From positions 1 through 21,311 of IMG/VR virus record IMGVR_UViG_3300050020_000542: a DNA stretch of 21,311 nucleotides; one strand, given 5' to 3'. Positions 6,858 through 21,011 of this stretch are shown here, one piece after another; the stretch's first letter is position 1, and each line of letters starts with the position of its first letter. The translations under genes were made by a program, and so were the position numbers. This DNA comes from a virus. The notes below the pieces were generated by a model, which made no database searches, was not told where the DNA came from, and worked only from the letters and a program-made list of their open reading frames with translations.

Positions 6858-7623
6858 GAATGATCTTTACCGTGCAGGAATTGCGGTTCACACTGGTAGT
6901 GGTAATCGTCAGCGCATCGTCGCCCAGGTGCGCGCCTTCGTAGACTCCGCCGCGCGTGCTGGCCTTGTATCCCGACGCCGCGGTCTGCGCCTCCACCTGT
7001 AGGCCGTACACTTCCACTGTATCGCCCGCCCCGATCTCCACCCCGAATCGCACCGACGTGGCTTGTGCATCTCCGCTGGATGTCCAGGCGAGCCGCGTCC
7101 AGTCGCTGGTCACCGCCCGCCCCGCGCCCTGGCTGCCAACCGTCAGCCGCACGCTCGTCGCCGTCGCCGCCCGCACGTAGGCGCTCAAGCAGTACTGGTA
7201 TCCGCCGGGCGCCGCCAGCGTCTGTCCGGCCGATTGTGCTGCTCCCCCGCCGTTGCTCAACCGCCACGCCCTCGTGCCCCCCCGCGGATCGGCGACACTC
7301 CCGGTCAGGCTCAGTAGCGGATCCTTCTGCCAGGCCCCTTGGTCAAGCTGATCGCTCCAGGCCAGCAGATTGCCCGCCGGATCCAGAAACGTGAAACCGT
7401 TCAGCGTGCCCTCTGCCGCTATGAAAAACGCCCGCAGCGCCGCCGCTTCCTCATCGCTCAGATCCGTGTAGGTCAGCACCCATTCCGTAACCTGTGAGGC
7501 CGGGTCCGCCAGCTTCATCGTGCTGCCGTCGACGGCTTGATTCACCACCGTCCGCGCCCGCCGCGTTTTCCGCACCGGGAATTGGCTCAGCGCCCCGCTT
7601 TCGAGTTGTGGATAGGCTGCCAT
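6841..7623 (-). CDS. Distal tail protein (DUF2460/gpM-like N-terminus plus beta-sandwich domain)
   Basis: 260 aa. The N-terminal ~105 residues parallel the next upstream gene product almost motif for motif: MAAYPQLESGALSQFPV, then LSDEEAAALRAFFIAAEG, then FTFLDPAGN. This is the DUF2460/lambda gpM-type tail-tip pattern, with the characteristic F-x-DP turn. Residues ~108-260 add a lectin- or CBM-like beta sandwich (GTRAWRLSNGG, then YQYCLSAYVRAATATSVRLTVGSQ, then a VEVYGLQVE strand). CBM-like domains of this layout often decorate tail tips, so glycan binding is a reasonable inference. The stop lies 17 nt inside the hub gene, so the two are probably co-translated. No strong ribosome binding site precedes the ATG, which lies 6 nt after the preceding gene; coupling is likely. 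Confidence 0.72.
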   Translation of the reverse strand: MAAYPQLESGALSQFPVRKTRRARTVVNQAVDGSTMKLADPASQVTEWVLTYTDLSDEEAAALRAFFIAAEGTLNGFTFLDPAGNLLAWSDQLDQGAWQKDPLLSLTGSVADPRGGTRAWRLSNGGGAAQSAGQTLAAPGGYQYCLSAYVRAATATSVRLTVGSQGAGRAVTSDWTRLAWTSSGDAQATSVRFGVEIGAGDTVEVYGLQVEAQTAASGYKASTRGGVYEGAHLGDDALTITTTSVNRNSCTVKIIHANHL

Positions 7624-7629
7624 GGCGTT

Positions 7630-7986
7630 TCAGATATTCCGCACCACGGTGAGCTTCGTGCCCCCCCGCATTTCCGCCACGGTCGCCAAAGCCACCTCGT
7701 CGGCCGCCAGGCTGCAGTTGTCGTACACGTGCCCGTCCCATGGGTCTGTGAAGGAGAAACTGCCGAACGCTCCCTGACTGGCCAGGAAAAACTCCTCGAT
7801 TGCCGCCAGTTCCCCCTCGTCCAGTTCGCTCAACTGAATCTCCCATTCCATCCGCGCCCCCGCCGAATCGCGATAACGCTGGTCGCTGCCATCCACGAAG
7901 CGCACCGTCTGATTCTGGAACTGCTCGCGCCGCGCCACCGGATACTGCGCGATTGCATTCGTCTTCAACTGAGGAAAGGTTGCCAT
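7630..7986 (-). CDS. Small distal tail protein (DUF2460/gpM-like)
   Basis: 118 aa, a single-domain paralogue of the following gene product. Shared landmarks are the start (MATFPQLKTNAIAQYPVARR), the segment ELDEGELAAIEEFFLASQGAF, and FSFTDPWDGHVYDNCSL, which has the conserved DP turn and the Cys typical of gpM/DUF2460 proteins. Such proteins sit at the tail tip between the tube and the hub. The start codon follows one base after the stop of the tape-measure-like gene, which points to translational coupling. The paralogous pair probably arose by tandem duplication, after which the second copy gained a beta-sandwich extension. Confidence 0.7.
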   Translation of the reverse strand: MATFPQLKTNAIAQYPVARREQFQNQTVRFVDGSDQRYRDSAGARMEWEIQLSELDEGELAAIEEFFLASQGAFGSFSFTDPWDGHVYDNCSLAADEVALATVAEMRGGTKLTVVRNI

Positions 7987-7987
7987 A

Positions 7988-8578
7988 TCAAAGGTCGTTC
8001 ACTACGTCGTTGATCGCGTTCAGATTGAGCATCGCGTCCCGCACTGCCAGCGCAATGTCGTTGCTCCGGTCCATGAAAGAGCGCGCATCCATCGCCTGCA
8101 CGTTCACCGTGATCTGCGATGCCGCGCCATTCGCCGTGCCGCCGCTTGCCTCCGCCGGCGCATAGCTCCGCGGCGTTCCCATCTGGCTGTAATCGAGGCC
8201 GGTCATCTGCCCTTGGCTCTCCGCTGCCTGGAAATCGACCGCCGCCGGCAGTGCGTATTTCACCAGCGGCGCCGGAGCCGCCGGAGACCCTCCGCTAAAT
8301 AAACTCACCAGCCCGCTGATTAAGGGTGCCAGCCCGAACCCGCTCTCGATCACCGTTTTCGCCACCGAACCCAGCGTGCTCCCGCTGTCACTCGATGTTG
8401 CGGTCGTCGTAGTCTGCGTCTTGGTCGTAGCCGCCGGCGCCGGGATACTGCTCCGCAGTTCGTCAACCTGTGCAATTACACCTGCCAGCATCGCGGTCGC
8501 ATCCCCAAGGGCCGCCGTCTGCTGCCCCGACACCGCCAGAAACGTCTGATAAACCTCGTCTTGTGTTCCGCTCGCCAT
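7988..8578 (-). CDS. Short tape-measure-like tail protein
   Basis: 196 aa from the preferred ATG (8578). An in-frame ATG lies two codons earlier (8584), but the AAGGGAG ribosome binding site abuts that one directly and sits 6 nt from the one chosen. The N-terminus is helical (DEVYQTFLAVSGQQTAALGDATAMLAGVIAQVDELRSS), followed by a Thr/Ser linker (~48-65), a hydrophobic glycine-rich segment (VIESGFGLAPLISGLVSLFSGG) and a C-terminal motif ending ARSFMDRSNDIALAVRDAML. Its place after the G/GT chaperones and before the distal tail proteins is the tape-measure slot. At roughly 0.15 nm per residue (a general rule for tape measures) it would specify a tail near 30 nm, in the range of the short RcGTA tape measure. 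Identity is by position and composition; no peptidase or muramidase domain is seen. Confidence 0.55.
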   Translation of the reverse strand: MASGTQDEVYQTFLAVSGQQTAALGDATAMLAGVIAQVDELRSSIPAPAATTKTQTTTTATSSDSGSTLGSVAKTVIESGFGLAPLISGLVSLFSGGSPAAPAPLVKYALPAAVDFQAAESQGQMTGLDYSQMGTPRSYAPAEASGGTANGAASQITVNVQAMDARSFMDRSNDIALAVRDAMLNLNAINDVVNDL

Positions 8579-8595
8579 CTTCATCTCCCTTGGTA

Positions 8596-8634
8596 GGATA
8601 GGCCTCCGGCCTGTCCATCCGAGCGAAGCTCGGA
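8596..8634 (-). repeat. Two adjacent stem-loops between chaperone and tape-measure genes
   Basis: First hairpin: GGATAGGCC-TCC-GGCCTGTCC (8596-8616), nine pairs including one G-T wobble. Second hairpin: TCCGAGC-GAA-GCTCGGA (8618-8634), seven perfect pairs. Neither is followed by a T-run on either strand, so a Rho-independent terminator is unlikely. The pair looks like a REP-type intergenic repeat or an mRNA processing/stability element, and it sits directly beside a CGCAGAG repeat block. Confidence 0.6.
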
Positions 8635-8638
8635 CTCT

Positions 8639-8673
8639 CTCTGCGCTTATCTCCGCGCCCCTGCGTCTCTGCG
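8639..8673 (-). repeat. CGCAGAG-type iterated repeat, copy 1
   Basis: On the minus strand the heptamer CGCAGAG or a one-base variant occurs four times, with + strand starts at 8639, 8651, 8659 and 8667 (spacing 12, 8 and 8). A second, better-preserved block of the same type and orientation is at 16402-16436. The block overlaps the end of the chaperone extension, encoding its last residues (NHRRDAGARR) and its stop. From memory, repeats of this kind are frequent between genes in soil-bacterial genomes, including acidobacterial ones. Confidence 0.6.
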
Positions 8674-9425
8674 GTGATTAGACCCTTCCGCCTTCGTTTC
8701 CGCCGCCCACGCCTGCTCCAGAATCAGGAATCCCTCCACTTGTCGCGCGCTCAACTCCCCGAAGTTCATCCCGCCGAGCTGTCGCCGCACCAGGAAGTCC
8801 TCCACCAGCCCTTCGCTCTCCGCCGTGATGTAGCTCTTGGGGCAGCTCTCCGTCGCCACCGTCTTCCGCGCCCACACGGGCGCCATTCTGCCGTCGTGTC
8901 GCGCTCCCAGCCACCCGCACCGCCGCCGCGCTTCCAGGCCGCTCCTCCGGCACGCGTCGCACTCCCAACCGGCCTGGTTGGAAAACTGAAAATGGAAGGC
9001 GACTAGGAGTTTTTTCTTTCTTCCTCGCTCAGCCCTGTCTCTCGGCGGACCGCCGCCAGGGCCTCCCGGAATAACTCCTCGGGTCCGGCCTCCGCCAGCA
9101 GTTCCGGGCCCGCCATGGTTCCATCGATCGCCAGGCCGGAAACCGCTTTCACGCCCCACGTCACATAGAGCCGTTCGATTTCAGCCTGCAGCAGTCCCGC
9201 GTCCATTTTGTCCCCCGCCTCTCCGCTGGCCGCCAGAAACTCCGTCCGCCGCGCCAGTTCCCGCACCCGCCGCATCAGTTCCACCCGCCGCCCGAAGGAC
9301 ATCCTCGCGATCGTAAACGTTACCCCCGCTACCGTTTGCGATTCCACCACCGCTTCGCTGGCGTAGCTTCCCCCAGCCATCGCCTCCCCGGCCTTTCCCT
9401 TATCCGAACGCCACGGTAATTTCAT
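8647..9425 (-). CDS. Tail assembly chaperone GT fusion made by -1 ribosomal frameshift
   Basis: Long product: the G-like frame is read from 9425 to the heptamer at 9015-9009, then one base is re-read and translation continues in the -1 frame to a stop at 8647-8649. The extension of about 120 aa begins KKLLVAFHFQFSNQ. It carries a zinc-ribbon-like cluster (WECDACRRSG, then RRRCGWLG) and a helical tail (SEGLVEDFLVRRQLGG, then LSARQVEGFLILEQAW). Lambda G/GT and many siphoviruses use the same device to make a minor, longer chaperone that binds the tape measure. The gene order (tube, G, GT, tape measure) fits. The extension has no good ribosome binding site of its own near the frame entry, which supports frameshifting over independent initiation. 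The last ~10 residues lie in an intergenic repeat and may be a late addition. Confidence 0.78.
8965..8981 (-). promoter_or_regulatory. Hairpin downstream of the frameshift site
   Basis: CCAACC-AGGCC-GGTTGG on the minus strand, a perfect 6-bp stem with a 5-nt loop, starting 27 nt after the slippery heptamer. This is farther than the usual 5-9 nt for a stimulatory structure, so its role in frameshifting is uncertain. Confidence 0.35.
9003..9425 (-). CDS. Tail assembly chaperone G
   Basis: 140 aa, the short, unshifted product. Mostly alpha-helical (SFGRRVELMRRVRELARRTEF, then AEIERLYVTWGVKAVSGLAI, then PEELFREALAAVRRETGLSEEE), of the size and position of siphovirus tail assembly chaperones, directly after the tail tube gene. 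It ends ERKNS-stop, with the slippery A AAA AAC as its penultimate codons. The ATG at 9425 overlaps the tube gene by 26 nt and has an AAGGG about 10 nt upstream. An alternative ATG at 9380 (MAGGSYASEAVV) avoids the overlap and has a GGGGAGG very close to it; I cannot decide between them. Confidence 0.8.
   Translation of the reverse strand: MKLPWRSDKGKAGEAMAGGSYASEAVVESQTVAGVTFTIARMSFGRRVELMRRVRELARRTEFLAASGEAGDKMDAGLLQAEIERLYVTWGVKAVSGLAIDGTMAGPELLAEAGPEELFREALAAVRRETGLSEEERKNS
9009..9015 (-). promoter_or_regulatory. -1 frameshift slippery heptamer A AAA AAC
   Basis: On the minus strand the zero-frame codons are AGA AAA AAC TCC TAG. The heptamer A AAA AAC fits X XXY YYZ exactly in phase, two codons before the zero-frame stop, and the -1 frame is open for about 120 further codons. 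A purine-rich, Shine-Dalgarno-like GAGGAAG lies a few bases upstream, as in dnaX-type sites where it stimulates slippage. Confidence 0.85.
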
Positions 9426-10584
9426 CGTCCACGGTCCCTTGTGCCCGCGATGCCCGGAAACGCCACTGCAGCCGGTTCAGCCCATCGTCGAACTCCGGCA
9501 CTTCCGGCACCACGCTCTTCAGATACACGCCCATCAACTGCCCGTCCGTCTCCCCCAGTTGGAACATCACGCTGATCGGCGATTGCTGCCGCGCCGCCTG
9601 GTACAGTTCCTTGGTGGCATCGTCGTCTCGCGCATAAAGGTCGAAAGCCGCCGTCACCGTGCGCTCTCCCGGTGAAATCGCCCGCACCCCGGAACACGCC
9701 CCGCTCAATCCGAACTCCCGGTCCCGCGTGTCCAGTGCGTTCTTCAATGTGATCGTCCCTGCCGTGATCGTGCAGAACCGCGATGGCCCCGTCCCCAGCC
9801 ACGCCTGCCCCATGTTCCCGGGCACGATCGAGTAGTCGAACCCCGCCACCGCCGGTTCCACTGGAAAACTCTCCAATTGCGACGCGCCGGCTTCGAAGCT
9901 CGCGCTGTCCACCAGGTCCTTCGCCACTCCCTTGAAGTGGAATTGGTGGTAATCCCCGTCCACCACGATGTCCATCTGGTCCACTCCCGCTCCGCTAAGC
10001 AGCCGCTGCACCGCCGTCGCCGGACTCCAGTAGTCGAAGATGCTCACGCTCGGCAACTGCGTCGCTAATGTGTACGTCACCGCCGCCGTCACCGCCGCCC
10101 CCGCCGCCGGCAACACCGTGAACGGCGCATTCAGTTGTACCGTCTGCGCGTCCACAATCGCCGCCACGAACCGGATCTCGCCCCCGAAGCACACCGCCTG
10201 CCCCGCCGCCAGCCCGTGCGGCCCCCCGAATCCCAGCCGCCCCGCCGCCGTGCACGACGCCGCCGTCCCTCCTCCGAACTTCACCGGACTGCCGCCCAGC
10301 GCCGCCTGAAACAGCGCACCGTATCCCGGCCCTGCCGTAGTTTTGTCCCAACTCGTCAGGTACGTCTCCAAATCGAAATCCGTGCGCCGCCTCACTCCGG
10401 CCGGCACGCCCGCGAACGTCCGGCTCCCCGTCTTGTCGCGCCGCGTTCCTGTCGCCACCTGTTGTTGGATCCCGAGCTTGACCGCCGGAATCCGATTCGT
10501 GGCTGTGATCGAGCCCACACTCCCGTATGCGCTCTCTAGCGCCGTGTAGAATCGATTCGCGCTGGACGAAATATATGTAGACAT
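9400..10584 (-). CDS. Major tail tube protein
   Basis: 394 aa, matching the Phage_tube_2-type tail tube layout: an N-terminus with SSANRFYTALESAYGSV, RIPAVKLGIQQQ, GSRTFAGVPAGVRRRTDFDLETYL, a C-terminal strand set (RTVTAAFDLYARDDDATKELY, then PISVMFQLGE) and the terminal GTVDDEITVAFG. Residues ~105-170 look like an inserted Ig-like beta domain (GRLGFGGPHGLAAGQAVCFGG, then VDAQTVQLNAPFTV). Hexameric rings of such a protein would form the non-contractile tube through which DNA passes. It starts one base after the stop of the tail-terminator gene and overlaps the chaperone gene by 26 nt or abuts it, depending on that gene's start. Confidence 0.85.
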   Translation of the reverse strand: MSTYISSSANRFYTALESAYGSVGSITATNRIPAVKLGIQQQVATGTRRDKTGSRTFAGVPAGVRRRTDFDLETYLTSWDKTTAGPGYGALFQAALGGSPVKFGGGTAASCTAAGRLGFGGPHGLAAGQAVCFGGEIRFVAAIVDAQTVQLNAPFTVLPAAGAAVTAAVTYTLATQLPSVSIFDYWSPATAVQRLLSGAGVDQMDIVVDGDYHQFHFKGVAKDLVDSASFEAGASQLESFPVEPAVAGFDYSIVPGNMGQAWLGTGPSRFCTITAGTITLKNALDTRDREFGLSGACSGVRAISPGERTVTAAFDLYARDDDATKELYQAARQQSPISVMFQLGETDGQLMGVYLKSVVPEVPEFDDGLNRLQWRFRASRAQGTVDDEITVAFG

Positions 10585-10585
10585 G

Positions 10586-11086
10586 CTAGTTCCTGTTCAC
10601 TCCGATCTCGAAAGTGACTTTTGCCACCTGTATGAAATTCTTCCCACCCTGCTTCACCGGGCCAAATGCCACTTCGTATCCGCCGGCGTAGTACATCCCG
10701 TCGCCCCAATCGCCCCGGTTCCCATCCAGCATCTGCATCGTCGCGTCCACATAGACCTCAAGACTGTCCTCAATCCCGTCCAGCCGGTCCTGTGAGTGCT
10801 GTAACTCGATCGCCATCTGCACCTGCCCCGAGAACGTCTGGAACTTCTCCTTCAGGTTGTTCACGATCTTTTCGCAGTACACGTTCACCGCCGGGTACTT
10901 CACCCCTTGCGCACGCTCCGCCAATGCGCCCGCCGCGTTCTGCGCCCGCACCTGTGAAGCGGCCACCAGACCCGCAAAATCCGGTCCCCCTTGTGTCAGC
11001 GCTCCAACCCCCGCATTCACGCCCTTCGGCCCCGTGATCCGCTGCACTACCTTGACCGTTGCCGCGCTTCCCAGTTTGCTTGTCAT
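10586..11086 (-). CDS. Tail terminator / tail completion protein
   Basis: 166 aa. The start is set by a TGATG overlap with the adaptor gene (ATG at 11086), preceded by GAGGGG; the open frame reaching 11263 is antisense or alternative-frame extension. A likely core runs YPAVNVYCEKIVNNLKEKF, VQMAIELQHSQDRLDGIE, LDGNRGDWGDGMYYAGGYEV, GGKNFIQVAKVTFEIGV, alternating strands and helices in the style of tail terminator proteins (lambda gpU-like fold, RcGTA counterpart). Its position between the head-tail adaptor and the tube gene is that of tail terminators. It would cap the tube and join it to the head. Identity is by position and predicted fold. Confidence 0.65.
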   Translation of the reverse strand: MTSKLGSAATVKVVQRITGPKGVNAGVGALTQGGPDFAGLVAASQVRAQNAAGALAERAQGVKYPAVNVYCEKIVNNLKEKFQTFSGQVQMAIELQHSQDRLDGIEDSLEVYVDATMQMLDGNRGDWGDGMYYAGGYEVAFGPVKQGGKNFIQVAKVTFEIGVNRN

Positions 11087-11868
11087 CAGCCCCTCTGTAT
11101 CATCCGCGGCACCGGCAGCCGGTAAGTCGGCATCTGTCCGTTGCCTGCCGGCCGTCCCGTTGAGGGCATTGTGTCCGGTTGCACCCACGTCTGCCCCGGC
11201 GCCAGAATCGGCGAGTTTTGCATCGTCATCCCCGTCGGGCTTGTCCCGCAGTACACGTTCCATCCCTTGACCTTCGCCGGCGCGGTCGTCTGCACCGCCA
11301 GCGAACTGCCCGACACCTGGATCATCGCCGGTGCCGAACTCGCCCCCTCTTCACCCGCCACGTTGGTCCACGCGGCCGCCACGTAATACGTGCCGTCCGC
11401 CAGCCCGCCCGCCGTCGCCTGTACCACCGGCGTTGCCGCCTGTTCCATCGGGTCCGTGACCATCCCCAGGCCGCCCTGGATCACTTGGTTGTACGCCCAC
11501 TTCACCTTTTCGTGGTATTCGTCCCGCCTCCCCGCGTACCGGTCGTTCAGTTGACTGTTGTATGCGTCTCCGTACACCATTTCCAGCGTCCGGAAAATGT
11601 GCCAGAGCTTGAGCGGGGGCGTCATCACCACCTGCTGGATCGCCGGCGGCGTATTCAGCCCGCCTGGCAGTCCCGCCACCTCGTAGATCGCCATCGGTGT
11701 CTTCAGCTGGTACAGCAACGCCGAAACCTCTATGCGGAGTTCCTCATGTGCCAGAGCCAGCTTCCGCGTGACGTCGATGCCCTCCACCGTGGCCACATTC
11801 AGGATCTGCGAGTCGTGTCCCCGTAGATCTTCCATGCCCGTAACCGCGCCGTCCGTGAACAGTGCCAT
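11086..11868 (-). CDS. Head-tail adaptor-like protein with C-terminal FN3/Ig-like domain
   Basis: 260 aa. Residues 1-145 are helical and resemble connector/adaptor proteins of the HK97 gp6/SPP1 gp15 kind (DSQILNVATVEGIDVTRKLALA, then TLEMVYGDAYNSQLNDRYAG, then YEHKVKWAY-type helix). Residues ~155-240 form a separate beta domain (LADGTYYVAAAWTNVAGEEG, then KVKGWNVYCGTSPTG), FN3-like, with a counterpart in the tail hub around residues 740-830. It lies after the capsid region and immediately before the tail terminator, the usual place for the protein that docks under the portal. The added surface domain is unusual for an adaptor and could be exposed at the neck. The assignment to adaptor is moderately secure; the exact family is not. 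Confidence 0.6.
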   Translation of the reverse strand: MALFTDGAVTGMEDLRGHDSQILNVATVEGIDVTRKLALAHEELRIEVSALLYQLKTPMAIYEVAGLPGGLNTPPAIQQVVMTPPLKLWHIFRTLEMVYGDAYNSQLNDRYAGRRDEYHEKVKWAYNQVIQGGLGMVTDPMEQAATPVVQATAGGLADGTYYVAAAWTNVAGEEGASSAPAMIQVSGSSLAVQTTAPAKVKGWNVYCGTSPTGMTMQNSPILAPGQTWVQPDTMPSTGRPAGNGQMPTYRLPVPRMIQRG

Positions 11869-11878
11869 CGTGTGCCGC

Positions 11879-12205
11879 CTACTCCTTGGAGCCCCGCGCC
11901 TCGCTCCGCAGCCGGTCCAGCTCCGTGGTGGATAACACCGTCAACTGAAGCCTCGCCGCCACCGCCGCCCGCTCCGCCGTTCGCTGCGCCTCTGCCAGTA
12001 GCTCGCGATGCGCCTTCGCCTCGTCCTTCGTCGCCAGCCGGACATGACCCTCCACCAGCAGCTTGGCAGCCAGCCGGCGCGGTACCTCCGTCTTCCTCCC
12101 GCTCTTGCCCCCGTCCGCCGTCTCCACGCTCACCACGAGCGCAAACTCATCCGCGATCTTCGCTTCCATCTCGCGAATCTTCTGGTAATACATCTGTAGA
12201 TCCAT
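11879..12205 (-). CDS. Small helical phage protein of unknown function
   Basis: 108 aa starting MDLQMYYQKIREMEAKIADEF. The start is chosen at 12205 because GGAAGG lies a few bases before it; codons upstream to 12307 come from a hairpin-rich repeat. It has an N-terminal helix, a short basic middle (GGKSGRKTEVPRRLAAKLLVEG) and a long Ala/Arg/Glu coiled-coil-like C-terminus (AHRELLAEAQRTAERAAVAAR). It sits between the capsid gene end and the adaptor, where head-decoration, head-completion or neck proteins occur. I do not recognise a family. Confidence 0.6.
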   Translation of the reverse strand: MDLQMYYQKIREMEAKIADEFALVVSVETADGGKSGRKTEVPRRLAAKLLVEGHVRLATKDEAKAHRELLAEAQRTAERAAVAARLQLTVLSTTELDRLRSEARGSKE

Positions 12206-12233
12206 GTGCCTTCCTTTCCTTTTCCTGTGGCAT

Positions 12234-12297
12234 AAGGCTCCTGCCTTGTCCTCGGTGGGGCGGACGCCCTCGTCCGCGCGCGACCCCCTGGTCGCGC
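12234..12297. repeat. Cluster of three stem-loops with CCCT/TCCT loops
   Basis: Three hairpins in a row: AAGGC-TCCT-GCCTT (12234-12247), CGGACG-CCCT-CGTCCG (12261-12276) and GCGCGACC-CCCT-GGTCGCGC (12278-12297). All stems are perfect and the loops nearly identical. There is no T-run, so this is not a standard terminator. It looks like a host-type, REP-like intergenic repeat or an mRNA-stability element between the capsid remnant and the next phage gene. Confidence 0.65.
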
Positions 12298-12339
12298 TCT
12301 TGCACATCTTGAGCAGTCCGCCCCTCTGCCGTCACCACC

Positions 12340-12477
12340 CTAGGTGTTCACCTGCACGCCCGACGAGTTCCGCAGCACCGCGCAGCCGTACAGCACGTCT
12401 ACCGTGAACTGTTGCGCCAGCGTGATGGCAGAGTGCATCATTCCCACCCCGGAGAATCGCACCAGCGGCTTCCACAT
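12340..12477 (-). pseudogene. Displaced 3' end of the major capsid gene
   Basis: An open frame of 45 codons from an ATG at 12477, with a TAG just upstream, ending at TAG 12340. From 12420 on it reads TLAQQFTVDVLYGCAVLRNS and finishes GVQVNT, which looks like the C-terminal strand of a phage coat protein and is exactly what the capsid gene at 14854-15720 lacks: that gene stops with NTL plus ten unrelated residues. Joining the two at NTL would give a capsid of about 303 aa. The residues before TL (WKPLVRFSGVGMMHSAI) align only weakly with the capsid (L, F and M in register), so the fragment could instead come from a second, diverged capsid gene. It has no ribosome binding site worth noting and is probably not expressed as a protein. 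Confidence 0.6.
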
Positions 12478-12532
12478 GCGTTTCTGGAACTAGAGACCTT
12501 GCCGCCACCTTTCGGGCAGAAGGCATGAGGCA

Positions 12533-13015
12533 TCATTTCCGGGTGTTCACTTCGCAAACAAGGACTCGTCTGGAAACAAACCACTGTACGCAGTGCAATA
12601 ACAGGAAAACGAAAAAGACGTTTGCGGCGAAAGCGAAGTGCAACACGAAAGCGCCCATGATCGAGTTCAGAGGCAAACTACTGCTATGCTCCAGTGTATT
12701 GAACGCCCATGGAAGCTCCCAAAAGAACAAAGCACCAAAAGCGAAGAACATTGCGGCGATAAGCTGCCGAACATTCGTTATCCGGGCCTCAAACCGAATC
12801 CCAGAACTCGACGGCGAATTACTCCGGTGATTCGAGATGGGGAAGCGTCTAACGATAGAGGCCGCTGAGAACAGCGTGTAAAGGCTGACTAAAGAAAGCA
12901 GAAACCAATACAGCCTGTAAAGAATTGACAGTTGAGACCAGATGGACCAGATGGCGAAAGATTCGTACACCAGTGTTTTGACACCGATTAGTTTCAAACA
13001 GTTCCCGAAATCCAT
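12533..13015 (-). CDS. Small multi-pass membrane protein (insertion cargo)
   Basis: 160 aa with about four predicted membrane segments: IWSQLSILYRLYWFLLSLV running into SLYTLFSAASIV (~25-56), LIAAMFFAFGALFFWELPWAF (~85-105) and FVLHFAFAANVFFVFLLLHC (~122-142). A polar Ser/Arg loop (~58-80) separates the first pair. From memory it resembles a small uncharacterised membrane-protein family common in Acidobacteriota; I cannot name a function. It lies in lower-GC DNA inside the capsid insertion, about 65 nt downstream of one copy of the 52-bp repeat. There is no phage-like feature, so it is probably host-derived cargo. The upstream signal is poor (GGAG adjacent to ATG), so the start is uncertain. 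Confidence 0.6.
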   Translation of the reverse strand: MDFGNCLKLIGVKTLVYESFAIWSIWSQLSILYRLYWFLLSLVSLYTLFSAASIVRRFPISNHRSNSPSSSGIRFEARITNVRQLIAAMFFAFGALFFWELPWAFNTLEHSSSLPLNSIMGAFVLHFAFAANVFFVFLLLHCVQWFVSRRVLVCEVNTRK

Positions 13016-13079
13016 GCTCCATTTGTTTTGCCATCTCCCTTACTACACCGAAAGGAAACACCATAAAGTCTCTACGAGG

Positions 13080-13131
13080 CCATTTACTTTCAATAACTTA
13101 AAGCGTGAGCTATTTGATACGCCAACGTGTT
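13080..13131 (-). repeat. 52-bp direct repeat, copy A (between cargo genes)
   Basis: Matches copy B at 14844-14895 in 40 of 52 positions without gaps, including identical blocks CGTGAGCTATTTG and CCAACGTGTT (+ strand). On the minus strand the copy, with a few flanking codons (13090-13137), reads QANTLAYQIAHALSY-stop, against QPNTLDCQIAHGMRY-stop in the capsid copy: 10 of 15 residues shared. Part of a ~270-bp stretch without a gene (13016-13287), in which I see nothing else. Confidence 0.75.
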
Positions 13132-13287
13132 GGCTTGGAAGGGGTGAATCGTTGGAGGTTTGGGCGATGCGCTGTGGAGCCTGGGTACGCCAGTGGGCCG
13201 AATTCGCTCTTGCGGCTCTTGCGACATGAGGCGATTGCTCAACAGCCGAACGCCCATTTCTAAGCGACGCCGTTTGGGGTCAGCCCG

Positions 13288-14616
13288 TCACATAGTTGGA
13301 ACCGACGTGAACGTGCCGAACGGACTGAACCGCAATCCCAATCCTGCGATTCCACCGCTAGTTTGAAACTTCACAATGCCCCGCCTTCCCGCCGTCAGCG
13401 CAAGTTGAGTCGGCAGAACAAACGCAGTGTGGCCGTTCCCTGCAATCGTGAGGTTCTGTGTGCCAAGCTGATTGCCGCTATCGTCCCACATCGTCGCTAC
13501 GACGCTTGCCGAAGAAGCCGACAGGTTCGCCAGGGCCACGCCCATCACAAAACCAGCCGTGTTGTCGTAAGGAAGCGTGACGGTGGATGGGAACTGGCTC
13601 TGGAGCGGGACCGTGCCCTCTGAAGGTGAACCCGTCTGCGGAGTTTGACGAAAGATCGCATAACCACCGAGAGATCCTATGCTGAGTACATCGGCCCATC
13701 CGACAGACAGCGACGGCAGTTGATCCCCCATCGAGATGAGCAACGTCGCATTCGGGTTTATGGTGGCGCTCACGGATGAAGTAGTGGTCGTTTGCGAAAT
13801 GCCTTGCTGTGTGGTCGTGACTGGCAAGCTCAAGGCGCTGCCGTCGTCTCTATGAAGGGAAACTGTTACCGGGACTGCGGTTGATGACGTGTTGACGAGG
13901 GTAGCCACGGTGGTCCAACCGCCGCCAGCAGCGATGTGGGAGACTACGCCGGATCGACTTGGCCCCGGCGCAGTGTTCGTACTGATTCCGGTGATCGTGA
14001 TGGGCTTGCCAACGTCTCCCCACACTGACGAGATTGCAGTCCCTCCAATACCTGCCGCATATTCATCACTGCCGGGTCCGAAATCAATGCCAATAGCCAT
14101 GTGTAGCTGGCTCTGGAAATCTATGGTGCTCGTCAGTGGCCCACCGGAAACCTGCATCTCGATCAAACCATCTATAGTCCCGTTGATAATTGAAGTGAAG
14201 TCCGTCCGATTTGTAGGGGCGTATGCGTTCGGGTTGGACGGGCTTTCCCAAATACCACTGACCGGAGAAGTAGTGGTGGAAGTACCCAGAAGTGTGCTGC
14301 CGTTGTAAAGCCTGAACGTCAACTGCGTTGTTGGGGAGAGGGTCGGAACCGAAACGCCCCCACCTTTTCTAAAGTCTATTTCAAGGTTATTTGGCGTGAA
14401 TGTTCTGCCGAAGAAAAGTGTTTCGACAAACGGAGGGTGCACCGTAAAACGGACTTGCACAATCGTGCCGGAGTTCAATATCGTCCCAATCTGTGCCTGA
14501 ACGATATTGGAGAACCCAAACAGCGCACCAAGAAGGCCCATCGCACGGACGCTCCGCAGTACCGTGGTACGGTGCGACTTCAACACAATCCCCGCAGCAA
14601 CACGAGCAAGCGACAT
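13288..14616 (-). CDS. Secreted beta-rich protein, acidobacterial type (insertion cargo)
   Basis: 442 aa. The ATG at 14616 is chosen because a GGAGG lies 4 nt upstream; the frame stays open to 14652. The N-terminus has basic residues, then a hydrophobic stretch (MGLLGALFGFSNIVQA) with a likely signal-peptidase site after VQA. The mature part is Ser/Thr/Gly-rich beta structure. Its C-terminal ~220 residues have a pattern I associate with extracellular proteins of Solibacter-like Acidobacteriota: GGGWTTVATLVNTSS, HRDDGSAL, DNTAGFVMGVALANLS, MWDDSGNQLG, NGHTAFVLP, GLRFSPFGTFTSVP. There is no cell-wall anchor or enzyme motif. It lies inside the late operon of a phage, within the DNA that splits the capsid gene, so it is probably a host gene or a moron. 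Its role (surface or adhesion?) is unknown. Confidence 0.75.
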   Translation of the reverse strand: MSLARVAAGIVLKSHRTTVLRSVRAMGLLGALFGFSNIVQAQIGTILNSGTIVQVRFTVHPPFVETLFFGRTFTPNNLEIDFRKGGGVSVPTLSPTTQLTFRLYNGSTLLGTSTTTSPVSGIWESPSNPNAYAPTNRTDFTSIINGTIDGLIEMQVSGGPLTSTIDFQSQLHMAIGIDFGPGSDEYAAGIGGTAISSVWGDVGKPITITGISTNTAPGPSRSGVVSHIAAGGGWTTVATLVNTSSTAVPVTVSLHRDDGSALSLPVTTTQQGISQTTTTSSVSATINPNATLLISMGDQLPSLSVGWADVLSIGSLGGYAIFRQTPQTGSPSEGTVPLQSQFPSTVTLPYDNTAGFVMGVALANLSASSASVVATMWDDSGNQLGTQNLTIAGNGHTAFVLPTQLALTAGRRGIVKFQTSGGIAGLGLRFSPFGTFTSVPTM

Positions 14617-14843
14617 AACGCCTCCAGAATCGCTTCGCATGTTAACACACAACGCACTCTGTAGCAGGATCAGCCCGAACAGTGCCCGAACAGTGCGTAG
14701 AATATGTGTGTGCGTGATGGATCAGCGTCCTCCTGAAGACGGCAAAGGGCCACTGGTTTCCCGGGCCGGGACGGTTCCTTGGCGTTTCCAGGGGCGGTGG
14801 TTGCACTATCGGTGGCTTCGTGGTGGAAGCGGCGGGTGGCAAG

Positions 14844-14895
14844 CCGTTTAATTTCAATAGCGCATGCCGTGAGCTATTTGGCAGTCCAACGTGTT
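14844..14895 (-). repeat. 52-bp direct repeat, copy B (capsid junction)
   Basis: Overlaps the last codons and stop of the capsid gene and shares 40 of 52 bases with copy A at 13080-13131, in the same orientation. The repeat replaces the expected capsid C-terminus with DCQIAHGMRY-stop. To its left, 14617-14843 holds no convincing gene on either strand; it is presumably the leader of the secreted-protein gene plus the edge of the insertion. Confidence 0.75.
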
Positions 14896-15720
14896 CGGCT
14901 GGTAGCTCATCACCACTCGCATCCCGAAGTTGCCCAGTTCCGCGTACTCCGCGATCGCGCCCGTCCCCGGCAGCGGCTGCGGCAGCCGCCGCACCACCAG
15001 TCCGACGGCGTCCTTCGTGAACGCCATATTGTGCGTCGTCACCGGGCTGCTCCCCGTCTTCTGCACGAACTGCGACCGGAATACGAAGAAGTCCTTGATC
15101 TTCCCCACGCTGCCGTAAATCAACGACCGCAGTCCGGCGTCGCCCGCCGTCTGGAATTCGCTGAACCGCGGTATCTGCCGCCACGCCGAGTACGTAGCCG
15201 CGTCCACCACCATGTACTTCTGATCGCTCGGCGGCACCTTCGACAGGAACATCGCCGTTTCCGCTGCGTCGATGACCGCTTCCGTGATCGGCGTCCCCGG
15301 CGTCCCCACTGAAGTGTTCGCCGTAAACCCCGCGTATAGCCCCAGCAGGTCGCTTTCGATCCTCTGTGCGATCGCCGCCACCGCCGGCTCCATGTAGATC
15401 TTCAGCAGATCCGGCACCGCCAGCACCTTGGTCACATCCGGAATCTGGAAGGTCGCTTCCGCATGCGTGTTCAGCACGATCTGCGCGTTCCCCAGGCTCG
15501 GATTCTGCGTTTGTACCGTTCCGCCTTCCGCGATGTTGTTGGCCACCATCGTCGGCGGAATCGGTATGTTTACCGTGTCGCCGGCTTGCGCCAGCACCGG
15601 CTCGTAATCGCGATTCACCAGGTTCCCCATTACCAGGTTCCCGATCAGTACCGGCAATGCGTCTACCGCCACCAGCTTGACAATCGCGTTCGCGACGTTA
15701 CTCGAAGTAATTGCTGCCAT
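14854..15720 (-). CDS. Major capsid protein, C-terminus replaced by insertion
   Basis: 288 aa. It follows the scaffold gene and has a good ribosome binding site (AGGGAG, 7 nt before the ATG). The sequence is coat-like throughout: an N-terminal arm (MAAITSSNVANAIVKLVAVD), GDTVNIPIPPTM, QIVLNTHAEATFQIPDVTKVL, IAQRIESDLLGLYAGF, a P-domain-like PPSDQKYMVVDAATYSAWRQI, and a final strand GNFGMRVVMSYQPNTL. There is no prohead protease domain or neighbour, so the scaffold is probably internal and separate, as in P22-like heads. Residues 279-288 are not capsid: they come from the 52-bp repeat, while the expected C-terminus lies 2.5 kb away at 12340-12420. Whether the truncated protein still assembles is unknown; loss of a terminal beta strand would normally be harmful. 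Fold assignment is by context and pattern. Confidence 0.8.
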   Translation of the reverse strand: MAAITSSNVANAIVKLVAVDALPVLIGNLVMGNLVNRDYEPVLAQAGDTVNIPIPPTMVANNIAEGGTVQTQNPSLGNAQIVLNTHAEATFQIPDVTKVLAVPDLLKIYMEPAVAAIAQRIESDLLGLYAGFTANTSVGTPGTPITEAVIDAAETAMFLSKVPPSDQKYMVVDAATYSAWRQIPRFSEFQTAGDAGLRSLIYGSVGKIKDFFVFRSQFVQKTGSSPVTTHNMAFTKDAVGLVVRRLPQPLPGTGAIAEYAELGNFGMRVVMSYQPNTLDCQIAHGMRY

Positions 15721-15754: not shown

Positions 15755-16306
15755 TCACAGCCCCTTCAGGGTCTGCGACGCCACGCGCACGATTTCCTCT
15801 CGTACCCGCTGCATTTCCTCGGCGCTCATCCCCGGACGTATCCGCTCCAGGTCCACCGTCTCCCGGCCGGACGCCGGAGCTTTCGGGGCGGCCGTCATCC
15901 CCGTGCCCCCGGCAATCCGCGCCGGGAGAAACTCCGGATTCTCGTTCACGAAAGCGGTCAGGTATTCCTTCAACGGCGTTTCGCCGGCCTCGGTGCGGGC
16001 TACTAACCGCCCGTCCTCGGTCCGCACGATCCCGTCCTGTACCGCTCTGAACGCAAGATCGATCTTGCCTACTCCCAAACGCTGCAGTTCGGCGCGCACC
16101 GTCGAGCTCCGCTCCGCTTCCGCCGCCAGCTTGCGGCTGCGCTTGTTCTCTTCCGCCAGTTCGTTCAACCGGCGCTCCAGTTGCTCCCGCCGCCTCCGCT
16201 CCTCCTGTAACTCTGCCTTGTGCGCCGGCTCCGTTTTCGCCTGCTCGTTGTTCACAAATTCCTGTACCGCCTGCCGCACAATCGCCTGTATGTCGATGCC
16301 TTCCAT
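15755..16306 (-). CDS. Capsid scaffolding protein
   Basis: 183 aa, strongly charged, with a long coiled coil (~28-75: HKAELQEERRRREQLERRLN, then ELAEENKRSRKLAAEAERSS) and a C-terminal segment (DLERIRPGMSAEEMQRVREE) of the helix-turn-helix kind that scaffolds use to bind the coat protein. It lies between portal and capsid, the usual scaffold position. AGGAGG precedes the ATG by a few bases, so it should be well expressed. It would guide procapsid assembly inside the head and leave before packaging. Confidence 0.75.
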   Translation of the reverse strand: MEGIDIQAIVRQAVQEFVNNEQAKTEPAHKAELQEERRRREQLERRLNELAEENKRSRKLAAEAERSSTVRAELQRLGVGKIDLAFRAVQDGIVRTEDGRLVARTEAGETPLKEYLTAFVNENPEFLPARIAGGTGMTAAPKAPASGRETVDLERIRPGMSAEEMQRVREEIVRVASQTLKGL

Positions 16307-16450: not shown

Positions 16451-17821
16451 CTACCCCAAGTCGATCTCGTCCGCCACCCGGTTCTTGATCTCCTGCCGCG
16501 CGTCGCACAGGTACTTGAACGCCAGCTTCTTGAACACCTGCTTCTTCAACGTCTCCGATGCGATCCCTAGATCCAGCAGCTTCTTCGCGTCGTCCAGATC
16601 GCTGCCGAAATCGCCGATGTCGAATTCGTCTATCCCCGATACGTCGATCGTTACCTCGTCCTGCCGCGCCTCCGCAATTGCCCACAGCACCTGCTTCATC
16701 GCGTCCTTCACCATCGCCCCGTACGCCCGCAATACCTCCTGCGTCACGGCTGAGTCGATCTGTTTGCTCAGTCCGGACGCCGCGATGAATCCGCCTTTTG
16801 CTTGCTCAGCTTGGTTCAGCAGGTAACAAACGCGGTAGATTTCGTCCTTTAGCCGGACCAGGTTGTCCGCTGCGATCTGATAGACCTTGCCCTCCGGCTC
16901 CGTCCACCCGAATCGGTCGTCTTTCCCGAGTTGGATGAAGTAACTCTCCCCTACCACCTGGTTCCATTCTTTGTCCGAATAAATCACCGGACTCGCGAAT
17001 AGTCCCATCGTCAAAGCCCACGAAAGCGCGTTGGACTTGTTGAAGTGCTCCAATTGCAGGAGTCCGGCCTTATTCATCAGCCACAACCCCTCGGACACTT
17101 TCATCTCGAATACCGGAACCCGCCGCTGCGCGGCTAACCCGTGACGCCCCGTATCCGCTAACTCGATCGCCTGTGCCTCGCCCGTCTTGCGGAACACTTG
17201 GTAGTTCTCGCGGTCGTAGTAAATCCACCGCGTTTCCTTCTCCCACTTCGCGTCGGTTACTTTCGATTGCTGCAGGCACGACGTGCGGATTACTACCCAG
17301 TCCAGTCCGCCCGTCTCGTCGTAGTTCCAGTTGATGACTTCATCCGCCGCGTATTCTGTGAGGTAAGCCCGCGATCTCCCGCTCGCGTCTTCTTCCGCCC
17401 GCGTCCGCGCCACCCCGCCCGTCTTCGGGAAGTCCACCACCACGAAACTGCTCCCGCACACCATCACCTGCACGAAACGTTGCCGGAAGAACTCGTGCAG
17501 GCTCGTCCCTTTCAGGTCGCAGTCCACCGATAGCAGGTTATAGAAGCCCTTCGCCCCCGCATCGCTTCCCTCAAACTCCAACATCGGTTCCCGCCGCATC
17601 AACGTCGCCGCGTACCAGTCCACAATCGACCCTACGTAGTTCTCGTAGAACACTCGCCGCAGCCGTTCCTCGTAAACCTGTCCCGGCTCCTTTTGACGCC
17701 GTACCAGGTACTCGCACGCGTTCAACCGCAGTTGTTCCCCGCCCGCGTACAGGTCCTTGTATTGCTTCCACATCGCCTTCCGCGCGATGTAATCCGGATG
17801 CTCCCGGTTGATGTTTTCCAT
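16451..17821 (-). CDS. Portal protein
   Basis: 456 aa, directly after the large terminase gene. The ATG at 17821 is preferred over the in-frame GTG at 17830, because a weak GGGTG sits ~7 nt before it and nothing precedes the GTG. Portal-like features are an N-terminal helical wing (REHPDYIARKAMWKQYKDLY, then YLVRRQKEPGQVYEERLRR, then YVGSIVDWYAATLMRREP), a middle beta region (WVVIRTSCLQQ, then TRWIYYDRENYQVFRKTGE) and a long C-terminal helix region (LLNQAEQAKGGFIAASGLSK, then YGAMVKDAMKQVLWAIAEA). Length fits SPP1/HK97-class portals (~400-500 aa). Twelve copies would form the DNA channel at the head vertex and dock the terminase. Confidence 0.85.
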   Translation of the reverse strand: MENINREHPDYIARKAMWKQYKDLYAGGEQLRLNACEYLVRRQKEPGQVYEERLRRVFYENYVGSIVDWYAATLMRREPMLEFEGSDAGAKGFYNLLSVDCDLKGTSLHEFFRQRFVQVMVCGSSFVVVDFPKTGGVARTRAEEDASGRSRAYLTEYAADEVINWNYDETGGLDWVVIRTSCLQQSKVTDAKWEKETRWIYYDRENYQVFRKTGEAQAIELADTGRHGLAAQRRVPVFEMKVSEGLWLMNKAGLLQLEHFNKSNALSWALTMGLFASPVIYSDKEWNQVVGESYFIQLGKDDRFGWTEPEGKVYQIAADNLVRLKDEIYRVCYLLNQAEQAKGGFIAASGLSKQIDSAVTQEVLRAYGAMVKDAMKQVLWAIAEARQDEVTIDVSGIDEFDIGDFGSDLDDAKKLLDLGIASETLKKQVFKKLAFKYLCDARQEIKNRVADEIDLG

Positions 17822-17833
17822 GCTTTTCACCCG

Positions 17834-19138
17834 TTAATTGCTTAGCAGGGGCTGGCACCGCTCCCCGATCTTCAGCCCTCCGCGGCACTCCTGCCACAGC
17901 ACGTAGCCCAATGCGTCCGACAGATGCGTCCGCATCCGGTCCCGGTCTTTATCGATCAGACTGGTGTCCTCCTTGAAGCACACCTCTTCCAGGTCCTTGA
18001 TCAGTTCCTTGCACCCCGGGTCCACCAGCAACCCGATCTTCCCGGCGGCGGATTGCAGTTGCCGGTTCGTCAGGTTGATTCGCTCCCGCACGTTCGGATT
18101 CGCTTTCGGTACCCGGTAGCTCACCACTATGCTCGAATGCGCCGCGAAATGCTCGCGGACCATGTCGAAATCCGTCGCGCCCGTTGTCTGCTGCTGGTTC
18201 CCCGATGCGTCCCCGTAGACCACTACCCCTGCATCGTGTCTCGGAAAGCGTTTCAGGAATTCCTCGCATGCCTGCTTCGTCGTGCTGTGCCGGATCACGA
18301 TCTCTCCCACCACCTGCACAACCCCGCCAGCCCGCTGCAGGATCAACGAGCTCATAGGATCCACGTTGAAATCCAACGCCCAGCTCAATGGTTCGCGCAA
18401 GTTCACCGCCAGTTCCCGTACGTGCGTGCTCCGGTCGAATGCCGAGTAAACCCGGCCTCCGTCCATACTCAGATACGCCCCCAGCACTTCCTGCTGGTAG
18501 AACTTCTCGTCGTAGCTGTCTCTCAGCCGCTCGTAGAAATCCCCTATCTTCTCCAGCAGGTGCCGGTTCTCGAATGGCGCCGCCTGCACCGCCGCATACC
18601 CGTTCACCTTGTCCGATATGAACTTCCGGTATACCCAGTCGTAACCCTTCGGCGTCCATACCCCAAACCCGCACAACCGCGCCGCTTTCGGATCCCGCAG
18701 CCGGCCTTCCAGCCGCAGCCACGATTCTTCCTGCGTGTACGTCAACTCGTCCAGCCCGAACCATGCCAGGTTCGTCCCCCGCAGCCGCTCGAATTCGTCC
18801 ACCGGCCGGAACAGGATCCTCGAACGCGTATCCAGCATGACGAACGTATTCTCAGCCTTGTTATGTTCGTACGGGATATCGTTGCTCTCCAGGATCTCGA
18901 CCAACGCCGCCTGCGTCGCATCCCGTAACATCGGATAAGTCGGCGCGCCCAGAAGTCCAAGCCGTCCCGGATTCATGTAGCTCAGACGGATTGCCTCGTG
19001 ACACAGTGCCTGGCTCTTTCCGCTGCCGATCGGCCCGGAGAAGCCTTTGAACCTGTTCTTCAACGCGTGAAACTTCTTCTGGGACGGTAACGGGTCGTAA
19101 TTTATGTCTCGGCGCTTGGTTTCACCGGCTCGACCCAT
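17834..19138 (-). CDS. Terminase large subunit (TerL)
   Basis: 434 aa from the ATG at 19138, which follows AAGG by 4 nt; the frame is open further, to 19321, but that part overlaps the preceding gene. Walker A is GPIGSGKS at residues 35-42. Walker B is LAWFGLDEL, with the DE pair. The RNase H-like nuclease half shows its acidic residues in SWALDFNVDPMSS, VVVYGDASGNQQ and MRTHLSDALGYVLW. All key residues are present, so the motor is probably functional. It overlaps the small-terminase-like gene by 37 nt and is followed 12 nt later by portal. It pumps DNA into the procapsid and cuts it. Confidence 0.93.
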   Translation of the reverse strand: MGRAGETKRRDINYDPLPSQKKFHALKNRFKGFSGPIGSGKSQALCHEAIRLSYMNPGRLGLLGAPTYPMLRDATQAALVEILESNDIPYEHNKAENTFVMLDTRSRILFRPVDEFERLRGTNLAWFGLDELTYTQEESWLRLEGRLRDPKAARLCGFGVWTPKGYDWVYRKFISDKVNGYAAVQAAPFENRHLLEKIGDFYERLRDSYDEKFYQQEVLGAYLSMDGGRVYSAFDRSTHVRELAVNLREPLSWALDFNVDPMSSLILQRAGGVVQVVGEIVIRHSTTKQACEEFLKRFPRHDAGVVVYGDASGNQQQTTGATDFDMVREHFAAHSSIVVSYRVPKANPNVRERINLTNRQLQSAAGKIGLLVDPGCKELIKDLEEVCFKEDTSLIDKDRDRMRTHLSDALGYVLWQECRGGLKIGERCQPLLSN

Positions 19139-19368
19139 GTAACCTTGATCTCCTTTGTCTCTCCGCCTTCGAGGTCCTTTTCCAACTGCACTAACTTCAA
19201 ATAGTCCGCCAGCGAAGGTTTGAACTCCTCCGTCTTTAACTTCTCCTCCATGTTTGCGATCACTTTCGCGAGGATTCTGCCCACCCGGAACTTGTTCTTT
19301 ACTTCTGACCAGTGCTCGCATTCCTGACAGGATTTGTGAGCCTTTTCTTGTTTTATGGCCTTGCGCAC
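19102..19368 (-). CDS. Small terminase-like protein, first gene of the late operon
   Basis: 88 aa. The start is read as GTG at 19368, because GAGGAG lies exactly 6 nt upstream; an in-frame ATG at 19419 would place the start in front of the terminator hairpin and is unlikely. It is basic and helical, with a Cys pair (SCQEC) near residue 14 and a helical block ILAKVIANMEEKLKTEEFKP then LADYLKLVQLEKDLEGGETK, ending with KEIKVTWVEP, an ending often seen in small terminase subunits just before TerL. It would recognise phage DNA for packaging. It overlaps TerL by 37 nt. It is short for a TerS and has no clear helix-turn-helix, so identity rests largely on position and the C-terminal motif. Confidence 0.6.
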   Translation of the reverse strand: MRKAIKQEKAHKSCQECEHWSEVKNKFRVGRILAKVIANMEEKLKTEEFKPSLADYLKLVQLEKDLEGGETKEIKVTWVEPVKPSAET

Positions 19369-19380
19369 AGTGTGCTCCTC

Positions 19381-19413
19381 AAAATAAAAAAGGCTTCGCG
19401 AAATCGCGAAGCC
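19381..19413 (-). terminator. Intrinsic terminator in front of the late genes
   Basis: Perfect 9-bp stem GGCTTCGCG-ATTT-CGCGAAGCC (19413-19392), followed on the minus strand by TTTTTTATTTT (19391-19381). The T-tract ends right beside the GAGGAG ribosome binding site of the first late gene, so transcription must read through it to express the late operon. Confidence 0.9.
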
Positions 19414-19510
19414 AAACAACCCTTCCCTGACTCGACAATAACACCAGGGGTATCGCCGCTAACTTGGAGAATTTTTGTAACTGATTGATAATACAGTAAA
19501 TATAATGGCA

Positions 19511-19540
19511 ATAATATACTTACCTGACAGCTTATGTTAA
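19511..19540 (-). promoter_or_regulatory. Candidate late promoter (sigma70-like)
   Basis: Minus strand: TTAACA (19540-19535), an 18-nt spacer, then TATTAT (19516-19511), each 5 of 6 to consensus. It would start an RNA about 100 nt before the terminator at 19392-19413. The region around 19460-19550 is strongly AT-rich. A weaker plus-strand pair (TTGGAG, 17 nt, GATAAT; 19464-19492) could serve the divergent genes. Confidence 0.55.
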
Positions 19541-19543
19541 GCT
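19529..19543. promoter_or_regulatory. Operator-like inverted repeat over the -35 box
   Basis: AGCTTA-TGT-TAAGCT, a perfect 6+6 bp palindrome with a 3-nt spacer that covers the candidate -35 of the minus-strand promoter. The placement suits a dimeric repressor or activator site. No regulator gene is in the window. Confidence 0.4.
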
Positions 19544-19555
19544 CAAGAAAGCGAA

Positions 19556-19577
19556 GGGGCGACCCGAAGGCCGCCCC
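19556..19577 (-). terminator. UUCG-tetraloop hairpin, possible minus-strand terminator
   Basis: Minus strand: GGGGCGGCC-TTCG-GGTCGCCCC, nine pairs (one G-U) closed by a C(UUCG)G tetraloop, followed by TTCGCTTTCTT. The T-tract is imperfect, so termination efficiency is uncertain. It would insulate the late promoter from minus-strand transcription coming from the right. Confidence 0.55.
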
Positions 19578-19689
19578 GAAAGATTACGCGGGGCTGCGTT
19601 CCGCCGCAATTTAAGATTAACACGGTGGGGGGCTAATGCAATCCGCGAGGTGGTTGGCATTTTTGGGCAGCAGAGATCGAAGAATTCTG

Positions 19690-20517: not shown

Positions 20518-20525
20518 TAGGCGAC

Positions 20526-20702
20526 ATGAAGCCCCACCCGGAAATGATCGAAGGCCCGGAAGCCTGGGACCGCTTCCAGAAGGCGATGAAGCGCGTTGTG
20601 GCCGTGCCCCACGCGGAGATTCAGAAGCGCATCGAAGCGCACCGGCAAGAGGCCGCGCGGAATCCGAACCGGCGCGGGCCGAAGAAGCGTAAATTGGGGT
20701 AG
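20526..20702 (+). CDS. Small basic protein coupled to the DUF3800 gene
   Basis: 58 aa starting MKPHPEMIEGPEAWDRFQKA; an alternative ATG at 20514 overlaps the DUF3800 stop (ATGA) and adds four residues. It has a helical body with EIQKRIEAHRQEAARN and a basic end NPNRRGPKKRKLG. From memory, short proteins with an IEGPEAxxRF start and an NPNRRGPK end are widespread and uncharacterised in Acidobacteriota. The coupling suggests joint expression with the DUF3800 protein, possibly as a regulator or antitoxin-like partner, but nothing in the sequence shows this. Confidence 0.65.
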   Translation: MKPHPEMIEGPEAWDRFQKAMKRVVAVPHAEIQKRIEAHRQEAARNPNRRGPKKRKLG

Positions 20703-20720
20703 TGGGGGACAAGAGAAACA

Positions 20721-20981: not shown

Positions 20982-21011
20982 ACGATTGGCCCGTGGTAGC
21001 TTTCCGTCCCG

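Follow-up and report, generated by a model that had tools for sequence, protein, structure and literature searches.

The window analyzed here, the whole 21,311-nucleotide stretch of IMG/VR record IMGVR_UViG_3300050020_000542, is a single metagenome contig with a cluster of phage structural genes on its minus strand. Within this cluster, the major capsid protein gene (positions 14854 to 15720, minus strand; PHROG 283 major head protein, E = 1.9e-33; Pfam P22_CoatProtein) is truncated, and its missing C-terminus, 27 codons plus a stop, lies displaced at 12340 to 12423 on the same strand, beyond a 2,469-bp insert (12421 to 14889) made up of two head-to-tail units. The best overall reading, which we hold with moderate confidence, is that of a gene transfer agent (GTA)-like cluster split by a site-specific insertion of these two units and probably disabled as it stands.

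The truncated capsid frame encodes 288 amino acids, namely, 278 residues shared with the capsid family, ending in ...MRVVMSYQPNTL (MSYQPNTL), and then ten foreign residues (DCQIAHGMRY) and a stop codon supplied by the insert. The displaced remnant, read on the minus strand from 12423 to 12340, encodes TLAQQFTVDVLYGCAVLRNSSGVQVNT followed by a stop. We compared both parts with 80 capsid relatives (L003 to L082), fetched out of 196 candidate IMG/VR stretches encoding the capsid. The two nearest relatives, L003 and L004, read ...CCGAACACGCTGGCGCAACAG... across the point at which the window is split, and the remnant matches the corresponding stretch of their DNA without a single base change. In all 80 relatives, both parts form one frame of 303 amino acids (305 in one case), and 79 of them hardly vary over the final 27 residues. 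The first-pass annotation had proposed an interrupted capsid gene with a readable lost C-terminus and an intact product of about 303 amino acids, as the relatives now confirm; it had named capsids ending naturally near 288 amino acids as the finding that would contradict an interruption, and none occurred among the 80 relatives. We have very little doubt that the insertion is real, and the split capsid is known from this one contig.

We then asked what the insertion has done to the locus. Compared with L003, the 278 retained capsid codons carry 21 synonymous differences and one amino acid difference, and no amino acid change falls on the branch leading to the window. A test for relaxed selection after the insertion, made over the same 278 codons, gave no sign of it, and the remaining cluster genes are full length wherever comparison with relatives was possible. 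Either the insertion happened recently or constraint still acts on the locus; a recent event is the simpler reading, because nothing else has decayed. An AlphaFold model of the intact capsid was too poor for a fold search (mean pLDDT, 36) and solved structures cover only residues 44 to 220, and we therefore judged the structural importance of the lost C-terminus by its conservation. Because this end of the protein is nearly invariant across relatives, capsid assembly, and with it particle production, is probably abolished in this lineage. The split capsid would then present one recent insertion as a route to cluster loss, and a natural capsid-deficient lineage for comparison with intact ones. 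As a separate observation, relative L006 (1099 to 9899) is ~94% identical to the window downstream of the capsid gene and ~85% identical upstream of it, which resembles the outcome of recombination between two cluster haplotypes.

Two units and their route into the capsid gene

The boundaries of the insert were set by its junctions with relatives that lack it. Its ends are ambiguous owing to a common CACG, such that 12425 to 14893 is equally possible, and its GC content is 0.54, compared with ~0.63 in the flanks, a difference noticed in the first reading. That reading overlooked a 63-nt repeat that marks a third junction. One copy (14843 to 14905, minus strand) spans the capsid arm and the start of unit 1, and the other (13079 to 13141, minus strand) spans the end of unit 1 and the start of unit 2. 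The copies are 75% identical without gaps, and their local alignment score is 49, whereas none of 500 shuffles exceeded 25. The insert therefore consists of two units on the minus strand: unit 1 (1,764 bp; 13126 to 14889), bounded by CACG at 14890 to 14893 and 13126 to 13129, and unit 2 (705 bp; 12421 to 13125), bounded by CACG at 13126 to 13129 and 12421 to 12424. Both units open with one ~45-nt sequence, TTGGNNTNNCAAATAGCTCACG...TATTGAAANTAAAYGGC. The “cargo insertion” of the first-pass annotation is thus foreign, as claimed, but is two tandem units with a common start rather than one block. The lengths of the units and of the whole insert are all multiples of three, to which we attach no weight.

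Each unit carries one gene, and both genes, recognized from the start as nonphage, lie on one strand. The unit 1 gene (13288 to 14652, minus strand) encodes a 454-amino-acid protein that matched nothing in PHROG or Pfam at threshold; its C-terminal domain is acidobacterial, with Bryobacterales relatives L083 (69%) and L084 (60%), and distant matches of 30 to 31% occur in large viral contigs. Judged from its N-terminus alone, the protein is probably secreted. The unit 2 gene, an open frame at 12533 to 13015 (minus strand), encodes a hydrophobic protein of 160 amino acids, predicted to be probably a membrane protein, for which we found no relatives and no PHROG match. At the right end of unit 2 (12424 to 12489), GC content is high and both strands are open: the plus strand reads MAECIIPTPENRTSGFHMRFWN followed by a stop, and the minus strand encodes MWKPLVRFSGVGMMHSAI, which shares its frame with the capsid remnant.

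Searches of phage and plasmid collections returned no match to the insert. Common submotif aside, the 63-nt repeat had no relatives in 237 genomes of the family, and it had none in 396 genomes of the phylum or in viral, phage, and plasmid collections. The TTATTGAAA part of the repeat resembles a common motif of the family genomes, which sometimes lies beside tRNA genes and belongs to no consistent element. A motif partly contained in the junction repeat, TAAGTTATTGAAARTAAAYGG (loci L108 to L138), was found in 12 of 61 Bryobacteraceae genomes and never in a reversed control; in five of the loci inspected, it sits flush against a tRNA gene at the 3′ end of that gene.

The three junctions read CCGAACACG followed by TTGG (capsid/unit 1), GCCAACACG followed by TTGG (unit 1/unit 2), and GCCATCACG followed by CTGG (unit 2/capsid). 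All three have CACG in common, with a GCC-A-like arm before it. The ACGTTGG and ACGCTGG noted earlier at the two ends of the insert as possible target-site remnants do exist: CACG is perfect at both ends, and seven of eight positions match when the comparison is extended to CACG[T/C]TGG. The base after CACG is T in both units and C in the L003 and L004 capsid genes; if the T arrived with the unit, this would explain the single mismatch. Since CACG is common to the junctions and the left arms are similar, recombination at a short common core is suggested. In the mechanism that we propose, the two-unit insert would have entered the capsid gene at codon 277/278, at a GCC(G)AA-CACG site, probably by site-specific recombination with the enzyme supplied in trans. 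We favor such recombination over transposition by a small margin.

Several points count against this route. There is no recombinase in the window and the 63-nt repeat has no relatives in the collections searched, and so the insertion class rests on the three junctions of one contig. The likeness between capsid arm and unit end is modest: of 233 CACG sites across the window, 4 reach an equal score. We describe the insert as two cassette-like units of provisional mobility class.

Ordinary transposition, the strongest competing explanation, is a serious rival, if less probable. A nonautonomous element or mobile insertion cassette would have created a 4-bp (CACG) or 8-bp (CACGYTGG, with one later change) target duplication, and a second, related copy would have landed beside the first. 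The perfect 4-bp and near-perfect 8-bp direct repeats at the insert ends agree with this, and the common left end of the units is as expected of elements of one family. The target could, moreover, be polymorphic, since the uninterrupted capsid genes of L035, L037, and L041 carry the T form of the site. However, a repeat search of positions 12200 to 15100 revealed no terminal inverted repeats at the insert boundaries, there is no transposase, and the right ends of the two units have little in common beyond GCCAWCACG. The likeness of the internal junction to the capsid flank also extends several bases beyond the core. The insert is like mobile insertion cassettes and other nonautonomous transposons in carrying passenger genes without a transposase and in having a short flanking direct repeat, but differs from them in its lack of recognizable terminal inverted repeats and in its two tandem units with a third similar site. 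IS200/IS605-like ends were also considered and rejected: a hairpin lies ~14 nt inside each left end, and no matching right-end hairpin was found by eye.

Integron cassettes offer another comparison, being small, promoter-distant, one-gene units joined head to tail in one orientation by short, similar sites. In contrast to such cassettes, the units described here are conserved at the start and not at the end. The junction cores (GTTGGAC, GTTGGCG, and GCTGGCG on one strand; GTTCGGC, GTTGGCT, and GATGGCA on the other) do not fit the paired attC consensus RYYYAAC/GTTRRRY, as a matching partner box is lacking. Folding of the junctions as attC sites was no better than for shuffles, and the placement was also wrong. 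No integron integrase was present among the window genes; one could lie elsewhere in the host.

Excision at the repeated core would rejoin the capsid frame. A regulated interruption, in which some cells excise the element and particle production is thereby controlled, like that by the elements that interrupt and restore sporulation or competence genes, would fit the exact core repeat at both ends and the unchanged remnant and retained codons. We nevertheless regard it as quite improbable: the split is found on one contig and in none of the 80 relatives, the insert lacks a recombinase, and a recent random hit accounts for the absence of decay. We give still slightly less credence to the fuller proposal of an independently domesticated Bryobacteraceae GTA in which new, nonintegron, site-specific cassettes reversibly switch particles off and on via the capsid gene. 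An assembly chimera, with the insert joined erroneously to the capsid gene, is conceivable for a record that is a single metagenome contig, and yet very unlikely. The capsid sequence breaks off and resumes at one nucleotide with nothing lost, two coincident false joins would be required at sites that have their core in common with the internal junction, and the common stretches would be far below the usual assembly k-mer length. Finally, the capsid could stay functional if the insert were a self-splicing intron or an intein-like element that is removed from the transcript or the translated product, but this has next to no likelihood. At gathering thresholds, no Rfam intron family was found in the window, a stop codon closes the frame after ten codons of insert, and the passenger genes do not encode intron proteins.

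Distribution and descent of the structural cluster

The interruption is less interesting than the locus that it struck, an undescribed, family-wide GTA-like locus of soil Acidobacteriota. In a set of 101 Bryobacteraceae genomes reached via one Bryobacterales genome, the capsid gene was present in 90, nearly always intact and in one copy. Across 247 Acidobacteriota genomes, it was found only in the starting Bryobacterales genome, apart from one 31% match. The terminase-portal-capsid-tail block was collinear in 10 of 10 genomes, and further genomes agreed as far as their contigs reach. The contigs that carry it are long and chromosomal, and host genes flank the cluster at either end. In genome G160, it is flanked by ferritin and sugar oxidase genes on one side and by TPR, symporter, and permease genes on the other; in G118, AsnB lies on one side and an O-antigen ligase and a MacB-type permease lie on the other. 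The flanking genes scanned in these two genomes were metabolic or transport genes, with no integrase, repressor, or replication gene among them, while the flanks of the remaining genomes were compared and annotated in part only. The neighbors upstream of the terminase gene (AsnB and/or the next gene) are common to at least seven genomes, and in four IMG/VR contigs one and the same gene ends immediately ahead of the cluster. In more distant genera, other neighbors flank the cluster, and its site is therefore not uniform across the family.

We next compared the descent of the cluster with that of the host. Capsid distances tracked those of RpoB (Mantel r = 0.67, p = 1e-4, n = 15), as did, and more closely, the distances of five concatenated cluster genes (r = 0.80, p = 1e-4, n = 13). 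The five-gene and RpoB trees had 3 of 10 splits in common (P = 0.005), and capsid divergence (0.05 to 0.30) was of the same order as that of RpoB (0.025 to 0.20). GTAs are recognized by genes fixed in the chromosome and by mostly vertical inheritance, or codiversification with the host, and further by the packaging of random host DNA in particles, the inability to package their own genes fully, and delivery of DNA to other cells (PMC9662315). Of these properties, the two that can be tested by sequence, chromosomal fixation and mostly vertical inheritance, were both observed here. The comparisons point to a phage-derived cluster that is, with high probability, domesticated and vertically inherited, and that probably, with less assurance, functions as a GTA. 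The window would then be a piece of a Bryobacteraceae-type chromosome, and the cluster would build small tailed particles carrying host DNA.

Against this interpretation, it must be said that the host and cluster trees agree in part only (3 of 10 splits), that the window lacks the upstream neighbors of its relatives, and that both the function of the particle, seen through its genes, and the place of the window within the Bryobacteraceae are inferred. The main alternative is an ordinary temperate phage, with the window a defective prophage that has taken up an insertion. IMG/VR classes the record as viral, every cluster gene is a phage structural gene, and one genome (G209) has, besides a normal cluster on contig C2, two distant capsid copies on C1 (L222 and L223; 61 to 64%) that lie in a prophage-like context with weakly related portal and terminase genes. 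These two loci may be true phage relatives of the cluster. This alternative is nonetheless improbable. Prophages would be expected to show a sporadic distribution and a variable site, but most of the family has one locus per genome, nearly always in single copy, which is absent elsewhere in the phylum bar the one match given above. The codescent with RpoB, the host genes that adjoin the cluster on both sides, and the absence of an integrase from the scanned flanks also argue against a prophage, and the nearest isolated phages are only 27 to 30% identical. The first-pass annotation had suggested a phage that was inactivated or domesticated; inactivation is likely, but an ordinary phage does not agree with a near-universal, nearly always single-copy family locus that follows the host tree.

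A close parallel in layout and inheritance is RcGTA with its relatives (Rhodogtaviriformidae, the type I GTAs of Alphaproteobacteria), likewise a chromosomal, host-inherited terminase-portal-capsid-tail cluster of ~15 to 17 kb without integration genes. RcGTA also has DUF2460-type tail genes. It belongs to another phylum, however, and the Bryobacteraceae capsid is of the P22/HK97 type and related to PHROG 283; the likeness is thus one of layout and inheritance, with the Bryobacteraceae cluster known from genes alone. Few GTAs are known outside the Alphaproteobacteria. Among the relatives used here, L029 comes from an IMG/VR record that is, by its IMG number, presumably “Ca. Solibacter usitatus” Ellin6076. 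FpGTA of Faecalibacterium is similar in being a GTA-like structural operon found by sequence in a nonproteobacterial host, but differs in that it was tied to packaged DNA reads, whereas the Bryobacteraceae cluster rests on distribution and codescent (PMC12946183). Prophages with structural phage genes have been reported from genomes of the same phylum, including one predicted in “Ca. Solibacter usitatus” Ellin6076; these were treated as prophages, and a family-wide, vertically inherited cluster is not described there (PMC5900883). We found no report of a GTA in Acidobacteriota in the literature searched, which was mostly without subscription journals and preprints.

Carried by ~90% of the genomes sampled from an abundant soil family, the cluster would add an independent instance to the known GTAs. 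If the cluster is chromosomal, the 196 IMG/VR stretches that encode its capsid are probably bacterial contigs filed as viruses. Unexplained bacterial DNA has been reported in purified virus particles from peat (PMC6172770), and the cluster is a candidate source for it that can be tested.

Remaining genes of the window

The other genes of the cluster, all on the minus strand, follow the order of the family. A small conserved gene of 105 amino acids (19102 to 19419), with matches of 33 to 59% in the same place in relatives, precedes the terminase gene and is a small terminase by position only. The terminase large subunit gene (17834 to 19321; phrog_2, E = 3.6e-34) is collinear in the family; its true start is probably downstream, because homology begins at about residue 60. 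It is followed by the portal protein gene (16451 to 17830; phrog_145, E = 8e-51) and, ahead of the capsid gene, by a gene for a scaffold-like protein, so named by position (15755 to 16306; collinear in the family, 53 to 79%). Downstream of the capsid remnant lie a conserved small gene identified by family comparison (11879 to 12307), a head-closure-like gene (11086 to 11868; phrog_8040, E = 3e-7), and a conserved head-tail gene (10586 to 11263), the latter two collinear.

The tail genes begin with that of the tail tube protein (9400 to 10584; Pfam Phage_tube_2, E = 7e-10) and a conserved, collinear tail gene (9003 to 9425), followed by a gene for a short protein with a tape-measure end (7988 to 8584; phrog_3779). 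Two DUF2460-type tail genes come next, the first at 7630 to 7986 (Pfam DUF2460, E = 5e-12) and the second at 6841 to 7623 (Pfam DUF2460, 2e-4, below the cutoff). The gene for the 1,386-amino-acid tail-tip protein (2697 to 6857; phrog_31 central tail fiber J, E = 3e-26; Phage-tail_3) precedes a conserved tail-fiber-like gene that runs off the window (1 to 2600; matches of 47 to 65%), and most of the family genomes that we examined have matches to the latter behind their tail-tip gene.

Upstream of the cluster, positions 19506 to 21311 are lower in GC and contain a DUF3800-like gene and small genes. This segment occupies the place of the glycosyltransferase-like gene and AsnB of the relatives, and homology to the relatives begins at ~19506. 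It may mark another local insertion, or the cluster may have been relocated. Within the cluster, a short intergenic repeat at 8590 to 8683 recurs between other genes of related clusters (for example, L003, 2887 to 2934, and L012, 5968 to 6015).

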